Source: Methanolobus tindarius DSM 2278
Lineage (GTDB): Archaea > Halobacteriota > Methanosarcinia > Methanosarcinales > Methanosarcinaceae
Reading direction: 5' to 3'
Length of the DNA stretch: 64,000 nucleotides
Assembly (NCBI RefSeq): GCF_000504205.1
Contig: NZ_AZAJ01000001.1
Coordinates: 62,001-126,000 of the forward strand
This document shows positions 47,282 to 53,848 of this stretch, piece after piece (the first letter of the stretch is position 1; the number at the start of each line of letters is the position of its first letter). The notes under the pieces were generated by a model. It was not told the origin of the DNA. It searched no databases and worked only from the letters and a program-made list of their open reading frames with translations. The position numbers were made by a program, and so were the translations under genes.

Positions 47282-48157
47282 GTGTGCAGTATGTCACTGA
47301 AAGCCATTGGAAAAGTATCAAATTTTGCAGATGAAAAAACAATGCAGCTCCTTGCTCTCTGGAAAGAGAGTGTAAGCATTGTTGAGCTTGAGGACACAGA
47401 TGCAGAAAGTCTGGTTTATGAAGAATACACGCATTACATAGTTGTCCATGCCCCTCTTGATATGAAATTCCCGGAAAAGAGGGATGAATGGAACAAAAGG
47501 TTCTGCAAAACGGCAGGCGTGTCTGTTGTTGAACTTATAAAAATCAATGGCAAGCAGATTTATTTCAAAGGGCTTTTTGCAGCTAACCATGCTCCGGTTT
47601 ATGGTATTGTCCCTTACACATCATTTGACAAACAGGATGCCGACTTTCCGGAAGCAGGCATGGAACTATTGAAGAAACAGACCATGGAAGTTGCACTTCC
47701 GGAAGCTAATGGTAAAACCATACTTGATGTAGGATGTGGAGTTGGCAGCCTGACCTTACAGATGGCAAGGATGAATACTGATTCACAGGTAATGGGAATT
47801 GATCTTCTGGAAAAAACCATGGAGCAGTGCCGTCTGAACGCTTTTGCATATGATATTAAAAATGCGGCATTCAAGGCTGAAAGCGTTTATGAGCTTCCTT
47901 TTGATGATGAAAGCTACGAAACCGTGACATGCTTCTTTATGTTACATCACCTTGATGATATTCCAAAGGCACTCTCTGAGGTAAAGAGAGTAGTTTCAAA
48001 GAACGGTACGGTACTGGCAGTTGAGCCTCTGGACCATCATCATGGAACTGAAAGAGGTATTCAGGACTGGGTAGACCACTTTGAAAAAGCAGGTTTCTCA
48101 GTTGAGACGCAACAGATAAGCAGGGCGGTTTTTGTAAAGGCAAAAGTCAACTGCTGA
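47282..48157 (+). CDS. TsaA/TrmO-like domain fused to a class I methyltransferase
   Basis: 291 residues from GTG 47282 (ATG 47291 is possible). The N-terminal 120 residues follow the TsaA (UPF0066) barrel order: IGKVSNFADE, ESLVYEEYTHYIVVH, VELIKINGKQIYFKGL and APVYGIVPYTSFD, although the usual RPNPIG-type motif is missing. The C-terminal half is a Rossmann methyltransferase: LDVGCGVGSLTLQMA (motif I), MGIDLLE, ELPFDDESYETVTCFFMLHHL and VKRVVSKNGTVLAVEPLDHH. TsaA proteins methylate tRNA or other targets by a different fold, so one polypeptide joins two methyltransferase-related units. Divergent from the permease cluster. Confidence 0.8.
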   Translation: MCSMSLKAIGKVSNFADEKTMQLLALWKESVSIVELEDTDAESLVYEEYTHYIVVHAPLDMKFPEKRDEWNKRFCKTAGVSVVELIKINGKQIYFKGLFAANHAPVYGIVPYTSFDKQDADFPEAGMELLKKQTMEVALPEANGKTILDVGCGVGSLTLQMARMNTDSQVMGIDLLEKTMEQCRLNAFAYDIKNAAFKAESVYELPFDDESYETVTCFFMLHHLDDIPKALSEVKRVVSKNGTVLAVEPLDHHHGTERGIQDWVDHFEKAGFSVETQQISRAVFVKAKVNC

Positions 48158-48195
48158 TGACTTATTAATTGCAAACAATGAATTAAAAGAACAAG

Positions 48196-48324
48196 TATTG
48201 TTGACCACAAAATGGATGTGGATGGTGCTGGAAAGTGTGGCCAACAATAATTGAAGCAGGATTTTAATGGTTTGGGGGGGAAGGGTGGTACACAGTTGGT
48301 TGTGCCTTAAAATTCCTGCCTCAA
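48196..48324 (-). ncRNA. candidate minus-strand small RNA with two long hairpins
   Basis: Two long stems stand side by side. H2 (48251-48324): TTGAGGCAGGAATTTTAA on the minus strand pairs with TTAAAATCCTGCTTCAA, 17 pairs with one bulge. H1 (48196-48249): TATTGTTGGCCACA pairs with TGTGGTCAACAATA, 14 pairs. In each stem one position is A-C on the plus strand but G-U on the minus strand, so only the minus transcript is fully paired. A minus-strand TATA box (48348-48356) is about 26 bp before the first base of H2. No coding frame is convincing. Confidence 0.5.
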
Positions 48325-48347
48325 CTAAGTACCGTTGAGAAGGCATC

Positions 48348-48356
48348 ATATTTAAG
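48348..48356 (-). promoter_or_regulatory. TATA box for the two-hairpin RNA candidate
   Basis: Minus strand cttaaatatg-like element; predicted start near 48326, where the first hairpin strand begins. Confidence 0.4.
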
Positions 48357-48528
48357 CATATTCTATTTTTGCGAAGTTAATAGTGCCTACTGCTCACGAA
48401 ATAAACTCAAAACAACTTATAAATGGTTTATTTTATGCAGTTAATCGTAGAGGGATTACTTAGCTATAAACCCTTTTTTGGTAGAGATTTATCTATCAAA
48501 ATTATTTGATTAGCAATTATAAGGAGGA

Positions 48529-48610
48529 GCGGGCTTATATAGCCCGCAGAAAAAAGACGTGCAATGTCCCCTTTTTAGAGGAAGTGCCTGACATGATTTT
48601 GTCATTGCAC
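48529..48610. ncRNA. structured element upstream of a symporter locus
   Basis: A perfect 7-bp hairpin GCGGGCT-TATAT-AGCCCGC (48529-48547) directly follows aaggaggag and is followed by GTGCAATG (48559-48566) pairing with CATTGCAC (48603-48610). Inside the latter are a TCCcCT/AGaGGA hairpin (48567-48582) and GACA/TGTC (48590-48603), giving a multi-branch fold. Strand and function unknown; may be a leader or separate RNA. Confidence 0.4.
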
Positions 48611-48621
48611 CGTTTTAGGCC

Positions 48622-48664
48622 AGTGTTACAAACACTACTTGTTTTTAACACTAAAATATAGTGT
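48622..48664. promoter_or_regulatory. double inverted repeat and AAATATAGTGT promoter motif
   Basis: AGTGTT-ACA-AACACT (48622-48636) and ACACTA-N5-TAGTGT (48648-48664). The second includes AAATATAGTGT, which recurs at 55088-55098 before the paralogous locus. It may be a TATA box overlapped by a regulator site. Confidence 0.4.
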
Positions 48665-48783
48665 GACTCTTTTTTATTTAAAATTTATGCCATTACAGAT
48701 ATTTTTAATTCCTCAATTATATCGAAAAGTTAAAGTATGTTTCATGGTAACAGTTGACATTATTACTATTGGAGTTGCTAATT

Positions 48784-48903
48784 ATGCTGGGAATAACAGA
48801 CCCACAAATATGGATTGCATATATCTTATGCTTTGTAAGTGCCATCGGATGCATCATCTATGGACTTATACACTGGAACGATGACGACGGGGAGGAAGAC
48901 TGA
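48784..48903 (+). CDS. 39-residue single-helix protein paired with the following symporter
   Basis: MLGITDPQIWIAYILCFV then a helix rest SAIGCIIYGLIHW and an acidic end NDDDGEED. ggag is nine bases before the ATG. The stop codon overlaps the symporter ATG (TGATG). It is about 80 percent like the 41-residue protein at 55165, and both precede paralogous carriers, so selection keeps it as a coding gene. I infer a small accessory subunit of the symporter, comparable in position to small partner proteins of other carriers. Confidence 0.85.
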   Translation: MLGITDPQIWIAYILCFVSAIGCIIYGLIHWNDDDGEED

Positions 48904-50495
48904 TGGCTGTCAGTACTCCTATTCTCGGACTGGCCGTACTAGCCTACATGATGGTGGTTTTCTACCTGGGCTGGGTCGGTTACAAACAAACAAAAGACAA
49001 TGATGACTACATGCTTGCAGGAAGGAAAGTGAATCCTTTCGTACTCGCATTCTCCTATGGTGCTGCATTTATCAGTACATCAGCCATCATAGGATTCGGA
49101 GGTTATGCCGGAGCATTTGGTCTTGGAATACTGTGGCTGGTTTTCATGAACATTTTCGTGGGAATCTTTATCGCCTTTGTAGTATTCGGATCAAGAACCA
49201 GACGTATGGGTGTAAACCTCAAGGCTGTCACCTTCCCTGAACTTATTGGAAGAAGGTTCCAGTCAAGATTCATCCAGGGATTTTCAGGTGCACTCATCAC
49301 CATATTCATGCCACTGTATGCAGGCAGTGTGCTGATTGGTGGTGCACGTTTCATGGAAACCGCCCTGAACATCGATTATAATATCGCGATTTTAATTCTT
49401 GCAATAATAGTTGCAGCATATGTAATCACAGGCGGACTAATTGCTGTTATGTACACAGATGCCCTGCAGGGTGCCCTTATGTTTGTAGGAATGGCAATTT
49501 TGCTCATAATAACCTATTCCAAACTTGGCGGAGTTACCGAAGCCCACCAGGCACTCACAAATATGGCATATCTAGTACCGGATAACTTTGCAGCTATCGG
49601 TCACACCGGCTGGACCACAATGCCGGCATTTGGTTCACCAACATGGTGGACACTTGTATCAACAATTATACTTGGTGTCGGTATCGGTGTACTTGCACAG
49701 CCACAGCTTGCTGTGAGGTTTATGACCGTAAAGAACACACGTTCCCTGAAAAGAGCTGTTCTTTCAGGCGGTCCTTTCATCTTCATGATGGCAGGTGTCG
49801 CATATATTGTCGGTGCACTTTCAAATGTTTACTTCTTCAACACCCAGGGAATGATCTCCCTTGAGGTTGCAGGTGGAAACATCGATAAAATCATGCCTGA
49901 ATATATTAACAGTGCAATGCCTGATTACTTTGTAGTGTTCTTCCTGCTGACCCTTCTGGCAGCAGCAATGTCAACACTGAGTTCACAATTCCATGCAATG
50001 GGAACCGCATTTGGCCATGATTTCTACCGGCAGGGAATTATGAATGGAAAAATTGGGAAAACTATCACTGTAACCAGAGTCGGTATCGCTGTGACGATTT
50101 TCATCAGTGTCATTCTTGCATACATTCTCCCACCGGGAATTATTGCAAGAGCAACAGCAATATTCTTCGGACTCTGTGCAGCAGCATTCCTCCCCATGTA
50201 CTCCGGAGCTATCTTCTGGAAACGCATGACCCGGCAGGGAGCAACTGCAAGCCTTATTATAGGTACTTTTGCAAGTCTTTTCTGGCTGACATTTATTCAT
50301 GCCAAGGAAGCAACTGCACTTGGAATCTGCCAGGCTATTTTTGGACAGGCAACACTTCTTACGGGAACATGGACTCTTGTGGACCCGATACTTGTTGCTA
50401 CACCACTGTCATTTTTGGTTGCAATTGTCGTGAGTCTGATGACAGAACCTATGGCAAAAGAGCATGTTGAAAAATGCTTTAAGCAAAATGAATAA
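48903..50495 (+). CDS. sodium:solute symporter (SSS) family transporter, paralogue 1
   Basis: 530 residues and about 13 helices. YKQTKDNDDYMLAGRKVNPF, SYGAAFISTSAIIGFGGYAG, VTFPELIGRRFQSRFIQG, YVITGGLIAVMYTDALQGALM, LTLLAAAMSTLSSQFHAMGTAFGHD and the late WKRMTRQGA place it in the SSS family. A ggggagg RBS lies within the end of the small upstream gene. It is about three-quarters identical to the carrier at 55290. Substrate unknown; organic acids or compatible solutes such as betaines are possible in a methylotroph. Confidence 0.92.
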   Translation: MAVSTPILGLAVLAYMMVVFYLGWVGYKQTKDNDDYMLAGRKVNPFVLAFSYGAAFISTSAIIGFGGYAGAFGLGILWLVFMNIFVGIFIAFVVFGSRTRRMGVNLKAVTFPELIGRRFQSRFIQGFSGALITIFMPLYAGSVLIGGARFMETALNIDYNIAILILAIIVAAYVITGGLIAVMYTDALQGALMFVGMAILLIITYSKLGGVTEAHQALTNMAYLVPDNFAAIGHTGWTTMPAFGSPTWWTLVSTIILGVGIGVLAQPQLAVRFMTVKNTRSLKRAVLSGGPFIFMMAGVAYIVGALSNVYFFNTQGMISLEVAGGNIDKIMPEYINSAMPDYFVVFFLLTLLAAAMSTLSSQFHAMGTAFGHDFYRQGIMNGKIGKTITVTRVGIAVTIFISVILAYILPPGIIARATAIFFGLCAAAFLPMYSGAIFWKRMTRQGATASLIIGTFASLFWLTFIHAKEATALGICQAIFGQATLLTGTWTLVDPILVATPLSFLVAIVVSLMTEPMAKEHVEKCFKQNE

Positions 50496-50636: not shown

Positions 50637-53600
50637 TTATTTCCTTCTCATCAGAACTACAAGTGAAACGAACACAATTCCTGCAATTGCAGTGAATCCA
50701 GGAGTATTGGCTGTTTTTCCTCCTTCTGCAGGTTCTGCTATGTCACCATTAGCTGATTCTGATGCAGCAATCTGTTCAGATGCTTCGCCAATCTCATCAC
50801 CTACGACTTCAAAGATTGAGAATCCCGGAGTTGCAGAGTAGAAGTAGATATACTCGTCATCTTCACTTTCCTGATATGTTGGAAGATCATTCCACTTCTC
50901 ATCATGATATCTTGTCATGCGTATTGTGGAAACATCAATGTTGTTCTCTTCTATCCACTGTTTGCTTACTTTAAAGTGAATCTGGATATTATCAGCAGAA
51001 TCCGAAGATATCGTTCCTTCACTTCCAACATCAATACTCACCTTCTGATAAGACTTACCTGTTGAATCAGGAACTCCTTCCGGTGAAGTGGAGAGTACCT
51101 GAACCTTTGCAACAACAAGACCTTTGTCTTTCTTTGCTTCAAAACTTACACCAAGGACAGGAGAATCACTGTCAGAGAAATCATAGTTTACATCCGAATC
51201 GCCAGTTACACGCTTTACAGAAGACGCAGAATTAGATACTATTCCCGGATCCTGTCCCTGACTTACAGAGGCACGGACACCATCATCATCTGAACGACTA
51301 TCAGAACTTGGAATACTTCTGAAAAGTCCGTATGTACTGGTGATCTCATCAATAGAGACCCCATCAAAAACATGATCTTGAAGCCTATAGAAAACTACAG
51401 ATACATAATTACCTGAAGTACTGAGTGATGCATTTGGAACTTTAACCCATTCATTACCGTTTAGCTCGAACAAAGATATTGATGATTCAACAGAATTGCT
51501 CATTCCGGAATCATCATAGTAAATTGTCATATTGGGATCATACATGCTAGCGACATCGATGTAGCCATTTACATTTATCATACCAGCAGGAGCTGAAGAA
51601 CTTGATTCATTATTTTTCACTGCAACCTCTGATGTTTCAGTCACAAAAGTAAGTTGCATGGAACGTTCAGCCATTTTTAGTTTATCAACTGTATTATCAT
51701 AGGAATATCTGGAATAGAATGTATAGTCCTCGTTTCCAATTGCAGTATTATCTGCCATAGTCGTGTTGTCTGAACCAGAAAAACTGAAGCCACAGCTATA
51801 ACGGGAAACATCTGTAAGATCAGGCGAGATAACGGTATCAGAAACTGACAGCATATAAGCCTCAAAGCCACCCGTATTGTAATTAGCGGTATTACCAGTC
51901 AGGATATTGTTGTCTGAAGAACTAATATAGAATCCGGTAGGAGATCCACGTATAATACTATCCATAACTTCTACAGGGGAATCTACAGACATTGAAGTCA
52001 AGTCCCTACTGTATGTGTTGTTATTGGCAACATTATCTGTCAGAGTATTATTGTTCGATGAAAGTAGATAAACTCCATACTCATCATTGTAATTTGCAAT
52101 ACTGGATGTGAGGGTATTGTTATCTGATGAACTAAAGTAAATACCATCTTCGTAGTTGTTACTTGCTACATTGCCTGTTACTATATTGTCATTTGAATTA
52201 TCAAGAATAATACCATAGTAATTGGCAGTTGCAATATTGTTTGTTACTTTACTGTTATTTGAATAGCCAAGGTAAATACCAGCCATCTGTGAACTGGTTG
52301 CACCAGTTACATTGAAACCATCTATTGTTACATTGCTCACAGTTACGTTGAACACATGGTCTGATGAATCACTTGCATTTACAATGGTACTTGCTGATCC
52401 TTTCTCAGAGCGAAGTGTAACACTCTTATCAACAACAACATTCTCGTTGTAAGTACCCTCAGTTACAATGATGGTGTCACCGTCAATAGAATTATCTACA
52501 GCTGCCTGAATGGTCGTATAATTACAATCAACTCCACTGCCAACATACAAGGTTATTGTTTCAGTTCTACTTACAGTATTCCAGTTCTGGAAATACGGAA
52601 GACTGGAGCCATCATCTATTCTCCATATAAAACTTGAATTATCTTCCGTTGTGATAATGTCATCACTTGCATTCCAATTCAGACCGGAACTTCCTGAAAC
52701 GAATGCGAAACTTGTGAAGTTGTCATAGGAAGTAGAAGTACCATTACCTGTAGTCGGAGTGCCGGAATAATAACTGTTGGTCACAGTACCACTATCCGTT
52801 CCCATAAGACCACCAACATCACCACTGCTAGTAGTAGCAGTACCTGTGGCAAAACTATTTGTTACTACACCAGTGCTATAACCTACAAGACCTCCAATTG
52901 ATCCAGCACCATTAACATTACCAGTAGCATAACCATTGTTAACAGTGCCAGCATTATTATAGCCGACAAGACCGCCAACATTGCTACCAGAACCAGTAAC
53001 ATTACCGATGGCATAACTATTGTTCATAATACCAGAATTATAGCCAGCAAGACCACCGACATAGCTACCAGAACCAGTAACATTACCAGCTGCATAGCTA
53101 TTAATCACAGTGCCAGAACCAAAAGCATATCCAATAAGACCACCGACATAGCTCACACCAGTGACATTACCAGTAGCAGAACTATTAACCACATTACCGG
53201 AATTGATTCCCACCAGAATACCTACATAATGTGTTGTTGAAAAAACACCATCAGGACTCGTCTCCACTCCAAGGTCATGGATGTTAGCGCTGGAACCAGT
53301 CTGTCCAAAAAATCCAGCAGAAGTAGCAGTATAATAGATAGTAAGATTCTTTATTGCAAACCCACTTCCATTGAAGTCACCTGTAAACGGAGTAGCGTAG
53401 TCAATGCCAATAGGAGTATGATTACCTACTAGAGTGATATCATTTGTTAGTGTGAAGTTCATTCCCCAATCATCAGAACTTACTGACAGGTTGTCAATGT
53501 CACTGTCAGATGAAAGTTGATATGGGTTGTCTACTGTACCGCTACCGCCTGAGTAGGTGGCAGCCGAAGCTATTCCTGTGCATAAAAATATTATGCAGAT

Positions 53601-53639
53601 AAATGATGTTATGATAATACTGTTCTTATCTAATGTCAT
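50637..53639 (-). CDS. large exported protein: GLUG repeats, NosD-like beta-helix, PGF-pre-PGF, PGF-CTERM
   Basis: 1000 residues with an N-terminal signal (IIITSFICIIFLCTGIASA). Residues about 120-290 carry GLUG-type repeats (VGGLIGYAFGSG, VGGLAGYNSG, VGGLVGYNNAG, IGGLVGYSTG with NSYA/TGNV between). Residues about 365-700 form a right-handed beta-helix of NosD/CASH type (TIQAAVDNSIDGDTIIVTEG, SSDNNTLT-like turns). A PGF-pre-PGF domain (about 820-970; EENNIDVSTIRMTRYHDEKW, FYSATPGFSIFEVVG) and the tail TPGFTAIAGIVFVSLVVLMRR follow. The last 180 residues are close to those of the protein at 30635, while the front parts differ: a modular surface family. Confidence 0.87.
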   Translation of the reverse strand: MTLDKNSIIITSFICIIFLCTGIASAATYSGGSGTVDNPYQLSSDSDIDNLSVSSDDWGMNFTLTNDITLVGNHTPIGIDYATPFTGDFNGSGFAIKNLTIYYTATSAGFFGQTGSSANIHDLGVETSPDGVFSTTHYVGILVGINSGNVVNSSATGNVTGVSYVGGLIGYAFGSGTVINSYAAGNVTGSGSYVGGLAGYNSGIMNNSYAIGNVTGSGSNVGGLVGYNNAGTVNNGYATGNVNGAGSIGGLVGYSTGVVTNSFATGTATTSSGDVGGLMGTDSGTVTNSYYSGTPTTGNGTSTSYDNFTSFAFVSGSSGLNWNASDDIITTEDNSSFIWRIDDGSSLPYFQNWNTVSRTETITLYVGSGVDCNYTTIQAAVDNSIDGDTIIVTEGTYNENVVVDKSVTLRSEKGSASTIVNASDSSDHVFNVTVSNVTIDGFNVTGATSSQMAGIYLGYSNNSKVTNNIATANYYGIILDNSNDNIVTGNVASNNYEDGIYFSSSDNNTLTSSIANYNDEYGVYLLSSNNNTLTDNVANNNTYSRDLTSMSVDSPVEVMDSIIRGSPTGFYISSSDNNILTGNTANYNTGGFEAYMLSVSDTVISPDLTDVSRYSCGFSFSGSDNTTMADNTAIGNEDYTFYSRYSYDNTVDKLKMAERSMQLTFVTETSEVAVKNNESSSSAPAGMINVNGYIDVASMYDPNMTIYYDDSGMSNSVESSISLFELNGNEWVKVPNASLSTSGNYVSVVFYRLQDHVFDGVSIDEITSTYGLFRSIPSSDSRSDDDGVRASVSQGQDPGIVSNSASSVKRVTGDSDVNYDFSDSDSPVLGVSFEAKKDKGLVVAKVQVLSTSPEGVPDSTGKSYQKVSIDVGSEGTISSDSADNIQIHFKVSKQWIEENNIDVSTIRMTRYHDEKWNDLPTYQESEDDEYIYFYSATPGFSIFEVVGDEIGEASEQIAASESANGDIAEPAEGGKTANTPGFTAIAGIVFVSLVVLMRRK

Positions 53640-53848
53640 TATGAGTCACACCCTACATGACCCTTCCAACCCTTCAATAAAAATAATAAATATAATTATT
53701 GATGAATTAATATAAGATGTTATAAATAGCTATTGGGACTGTTGTGCTAGTGTTTAGCATGGAAAGTAGGACTTTGTATTGCTTAAAATAATGTATGAAA
53801 CAATTTATAAAAATAAAATGAAGAGGGCTTATTGCTCTCCTTGCTACT

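Follow-up and report, generated by a model that had tools for sequence, protein, structure and literature searches.

The window analysed here is a 64,000-nucleotide stretch of the Methanolobus tindarius DSM 2278 genome, in which a SAM-methyltransferase gene (47294-48157, plus strand; Pfam Methyltransf_11) and a sodium:solute symporter gene (48903-50495, plus strand; Pfam SSF) flank an intergenic region that a preliminary description had predicted to encode a small RNA on the minus strand. The locus raises the questions of whether the element at 48181-48331 is a gene, on which strand it is read, and what its product might do. We conclude from comparative sequence analysis that this ~150-base intergenic stretch is very probably a gene, with a promoter of its own, for a small regulatory RNA that folds into two long hairpins, and the earlier prediction is supported by syntenic orthologs, by compensatory stems in distant members, and by a conserved promoter box.

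The predicted RNA is ~145-150 nt long with approximate ends (48181-48331, minus strand), as delimited by its fold, the seven orthologs, and covariance models R1 and R2. In hairpin 1 the 5' arm (48307-48325) pairs with the 3' arm (48250-48267) through about 17-18 pairs with one bulge, and the arms enclose the C-rich loop 1 (48268-48306), with the motif UACCACCCUUCC. Hairpin 2 is directly adjacent on the minus strand, back to back with hairpin 1, and has 14 pairs between UAUUGUUGGCCACA (48236-48249) and UGUGGUCAACAAUA (48196-48209), both arms placed by the fold and alignment A4; these enclose the C-rich loop 2 (48210-48235), with the motif AUCCACAUCC. In alignment A2 the orthologs keep the loop 1 motif with slight differences, pairwise identity being 0.74 over 48278-48292, and most of them keep the loop 2 motif; these two are the conserved single-stranded motifs of the RNA. 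The 3' end (48181-48195) reads as T-rich, as it does in most orthologs, and is probably a transcription terminator. The arrangement agrees with the two back-to-back stems of 17 and 14 pairs described previously, and the one imperfect pair in each stem does read as G-U on the minus strand but as A-C on the plus.

The claim that the minus strand folds better also holds. Its fold has a free energy of -42.5 kcal/mol and a z-score of -4.75, with none of 200 shuffled sequences folding as well, whereas the plus-strand fold has a z-score of only -1.66. Across 16 members plus candidates the RNA-strand z-scores range from -3.3 to -6.8, and on that strand every member is rich in C and poor in G (22-30% C, 10-17% G). 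A double-hairpin finder run on shuffled sequences gave some double hairpin in 24 of 600 cases, none of them equal to that of the window; because the finder missed four members, in which outer pairs overlap, we relied on the covariance results.

A DNA search followed by model R1 identifies the element in six other Methanolobus genomes (E 1e-34 to 1e-39), and with the window included it occupies one syntenic locus in seven genomes. The flanks align to the window in the five ortholog genomes examined by BLAST, and at loci L009-L011 the element adjoins the methyltransferase gene. M. vulcani, M. bombayensis and M. profundi are close relatives as judged by the protein adjacent to the RNA; in M. profundi and other relatives that lack the element at the methyltransferase locus, the stop codon is followed almost immediately by the next conserved block. 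M. vulcani B1d retains the RNA with no symporter gene seen downstream within its 6.9-kb locus. A second conserved non-coding block (48515-48680, plus strand) lies upstream of the symporter gene and its apparent TATA box; it contains a GGAGGAGCGGG hairpin and the inverted repeats GTGCAAT/ATTGCAC and GTGTTAC/TAACAC, has no match in Rfam, and is kept in Methanolobus genomes whether or not they have the small RNA (L009, L010, L012-L016, L018-L020).

The TATA box proposed earlier (48348-48356, minus strand; TATA-like TTAAATAT at 48348-48355) is correctly spaced, with its end ~24 nt ahead of the first base of the stem, and the orthologs retain it as TTTAAATA or a similar sequence. Farther upstream is a 20 bp box, AGTTGTTTTGAGTTTATTTC (48398-48417, minus strand). 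Mean pairwise identity in the seven-way alignment is 0.94 in this box (48398-48412), 0.74-0.76 in the TATA region and 0.84-0.90 in most stem blocks, compared with 0.35-0.54 in the spacer adjoining the TATA box, 0.38-0.43 in the spacer between the RNA and the methyltransferase stop codon, and 0.35-0.50 beyond the box. Because the high identity of box, TATA and RNA drops to background on both sides, the profile argues for a discrete gene with its own promoter.

Searching the 186 genomes of the order for the box as AGTTGTTTTRAGTTYATTTC with no more than one mismatch yields nine matches, once each in nine Methanolobus genomes. Box and RNA were located by separate searches, and all nine matches lie 56-71 bp upstream of an RNA member at syntenic and non-syntenic loci alike, including the non-syntenic copies of M. 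profundi (G017) and G008. A tenth genome, G014, was left out of the model training set, and its contig 67 has an R2 match (E 6e-7) with a two-mismatch box ~70 bp upstream; type B members have a shortened box, AGTTGTTTTRAGTCGAA, nearer their TATA. Judged by this co-occurrence, the box is a dedicated promoter element of the RNA, and it gives a starting point in the search for a regulator that controls small RNA genes in archaea.

Further members are present at other loci, having first appeared as weak R1 matches: G010 contig 2 and G022 contig 19 (type B), M. profundi, G008 and G024. With R2, members are identified in 11 of 27 Methanolobus genomes, and there are no matches in the other 159 of the 186 genomes of the order. 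Other weak R1 matches (L058, L059, L061, L062 and L073) were not supported, as none is recovered by R2 at E <= 0.1, and a search with the pattern TTGACCAN{18,48}TGGTCAA returned only the known members and scattered chance matches. Two observations concern the surroundings of distant members. An ORF downstream of the G008 member (L060, 1909-2265) resembles by eye the C-terminal part of a tyrosine recombinase, which might bear on movement of the RNA gene. Near the type B RNA of G010, a CRISPR-DR7-type repeat and a near copy (L065, 609-645 and 1265-1290), 643 bp apart, flank an ORF, with no array.

The preliminary description had proposed looking for compensatory changes in related genomes, and the refuting outcome that it named, stems not kept by such changes, is not what these genomes show. 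The stems are nearly invariant among the syntenic orthologs, with no double changes in the six compared, and because of this the covariation rests on the distant members. In these, stem 1 has almost completely changed its sequence with pairing retained: the hairpin 1 arms are UUGARGCAGGA/UCCUGCUUCAA in the window type, GUAGGAUGC/GCAUCCUAC in G008 and GAGUUGGG/CCCAACUC in M. profundi, stem 1 being taken as homologous across the distant members. In alignment A4, which was fitted to the covariance model and structure, 97.9% of cells are paired versus 26-55% in slid controls, and double-sided changes occur in 18 of 25 pairs. The non-Watson-Crick cells of the divergent alignment comprise 14 G-U on the RNA strand versus 3 A-C, and the strand argument therefore holds beyond the window genome.

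We interpret 48181-48331 of the minus strand, from these comparisons, as a conserved structured RNA gene with its own TATA and dedicated upstream box. Three features expected of a trans-acting archaeal intergenic sRNA are seen here: a promoter of its own, in that TATA and box are conserved and the spacer is not; no conserved coding frame, the ORF being interrupted in five of the seven orthologs; and a secondary structure that is both stable and conserved. Members of the class are further expected to appear as discrete transcripts and to pair with trans-encoded mRNAs. Searches of Rfam 15 with the element, at the gathering score and at a relaxed E-value, match no family, and a tRNA scan of the element finds none. 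The product is very likely a trans-acting small RNA; that general class in archaea is already known, and the RNA family itself is absent from Rfam. What the locus provides is a family with clear limits, whose stems covary and whose promoter box matches the RNA one to one, in the culturable M. vulcani, M. bombayensis and M. profundi.

As to function, on which the preliminary description made no proposal, we consider it reasonably probable that this is a stand-alone RNA with a factor-bound box, whose rigid stems show C-rich loops that pair with the G-rich Shine-Dalgarno regions of mRNAs. On binding of a factor to the upstream box, the RNA would be transcribed alone as a molecule of ~145-150 nt. 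The two rigid stems would protect it and display the two C-rich, G-poor unpaired loops. These would anneal to G-rich parts of mRNAs encoded in trans, chiefly their Shine-Dalgarno regions, and so block or otherwise alter translation. That the stem letters vary while pairing stays fits a scaffold role, with the loops holding the conserved single-stranded motifs, and the C-rich, G-poor composition of the members together with those motifs fits pairing with G-rich ribosome-binding sites. Exact matches to the loop 2 complement (GGAYGTGGATA) in the seven genomes are scattered, mostly in coding regions, with no start-codon enrichment, and those to the loop 1 complement GGAAGGGTGGT in the same genomes give no convincing target. 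Outside the RNA gene, the conserved occurrences of the loop 1 complement are for the most part a coding motif for a Walker-A sequence that lies ~30 nt inside a MinD-like gene in five genomes, a match that protein conservation can explain. When the starts of 72 ORFs in the window were scanned for duplexes, the best one was with the start region of a gene for a NosD-type surface protein at 53639 (-27.4 kcal/mol), only modestly stronger than shuffled controls (best control -23.7 kcal/mol). The leader of this gene (53594-53684, minus strand) holds GGUUGGAAGGGU, the best partner of loop 1 in the window.

The same RNA could instead titrate a protein, its C-rich loops on stems acting as a sponge for an RNA-binding or translation protein. 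That the loop motifs are short and variable in their exact letters would suit such a role, as would the C-rich loops common to several related double-hairpin RNAs, and the loop-complement and duplex searches did not find a conserved mRNA partner; we nonetheless regard titration as unlikely, since it comes without a known protein candidate and the known methanogen RNAs built in a similar way act by pairing with mRNAs (PMC5867862, PMC3510493). An RNA acting mainly in cis on its neighbours, through convergent transcription or as antisense on the methyltransferase or symporter, is suggested by its position, convergent with the methyltransferase gene and ~30 bp from its stop codon, with the symporter start ~570 bp away. 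The RNA overlaps neither coding region, however, the M. vulcani B1d copy persists with no symporter seen in its locus, and other members adjoin unrelated genes, all of which make a mainly local role very improbable.

The remaining alternatives dispense with a minus-strand RNA gene. Any inverted repeat folds on either strand, and some plus-strand z-scores are negative too, as would be expected if the element were a 3' untranslated region or terminator of the plus-strand methyltransferase gene, or an inverted repeat acting at the DNA level. Against this, the 14 to 3 ratio of G-U to A-C favours the minus strand, the TATA and box are on the far side and read in the minus direction, copies with the same box adjoin other genes in M. 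profundi and G008, and the spacer from the methyltransferase stop to the RNA is unconserved, leaving such readings with a slightly smaller chance still. We give almost no credence to a small protein on the minus strand: an 83-aa ORF (48098-48349) is open in the window genome, and G001 has an open version of 60 codons, but the coding reading is rejected because in the remaining five of the seven orthologs the frame meets a stop within 5-12 codons. Its ATG moreover follows the TATA box but precedes the expected start site, and orthologs differ in loop length by amounts that are not always divisible by three.

The regulatory RNA that we favour may have siblings within the genome. A hairpin 2 pattern search reveals a second double-hairpin candidate in the window genome at C1:349216-349377 (L165, L126), with counterparts in seven other Methanolobus genomes, two of them in G007, and a hairpin 2 consensus of AUUGGCCAAU...GUACCAAGACCUUCC...AAUUGGCCAAU followed by CCUCCUAU. 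A third candidate at C1:826413-826549 (L072), with a look-alike at G007:C2:32014-32161 (L164), has weak model scores and a C-rich second loop, CACCCCACUCCC or similar. Both are probably siblings of the same build, and they are not proven homologs because their R2 scores in the window genome are weak (E 0.05-0.08). We tentatively raise the possibility that Methanolobus has a multi-member set of sibling RNAs, including that of the window, those at ~349.2 kb and ~826.4 kb, and more types in relatives, in which adjacent stems show swappable C-rich loops and part of which is driven by the dedicated upstream box. If so, one archaeal regulator would command a battery of translation-blocking RNAs through the box.

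Within the genus, a genome of 3,072,769 bp (G040) that we take to be that of Methanolobus psychrophilus R15 has no R2 member and no box at one mismatch or fewer, and in this the RNA described here differs from the cold-box sRNAs of that strain. M. psychrophilus R15 is reported to have nine conserved cold-induced sRNAs with a shared 'cold box' upstream of their promoters (Li et al. 2015, PMC5378194); the likeness lies in the genus and in the presence of a conserved motif upstream of the promoter.

Archaeal regulatory RNAs with known targets are, to our knowledge, very few, and the methanogen ones are all from one genus; the Methanolobus family would represent a second, independently evolved methanogen case. 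Model R2 detects no homology to Methanosarcina sRNA154, sRNA41 or sRNA162 among the 186 genomes of the order, and we know of no such upstream box at sRNA154. The stand-alone sRNA162 of Methanosarcina mazei is 191 nt long, with conserved stem-loops and an unpaired region that masks a ribosome-binding site, and is found in close relatives only (PMC3510493). The Methanolobus RNA is of similar size, with conserved stem-loops and presence in close relatives only, but sRNA162 uses a single-stranded linker between its hairpins, whereas the Methanolobus hairpins are adjacent and the loops are free. M. mazei sRNA154 is intergenic and genus-restricted and has two predicted stem-loops that pair with mRNAs through their loops, of which loop 2 is an anti-RBS (PMC5867862). 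The RNA described here is likewise intergenic and genus-restricted with two stem-loops, although its family has no detected member elsewhere in the order (186 genomes). The intergenic M. mazei sRNA41 represses translation by masking ribosome-binding sites (PMC5867862), the mode that we propose for the Methanolobus RNA, which is also intergenic but without homology to sRNA41 detectable by R2. The best reading of these comparisons is that the Methanolobus RNA, although lacking detectable homology to any Methanosarcina sequence, would work in the manner of sRNA154 and sRNA41.
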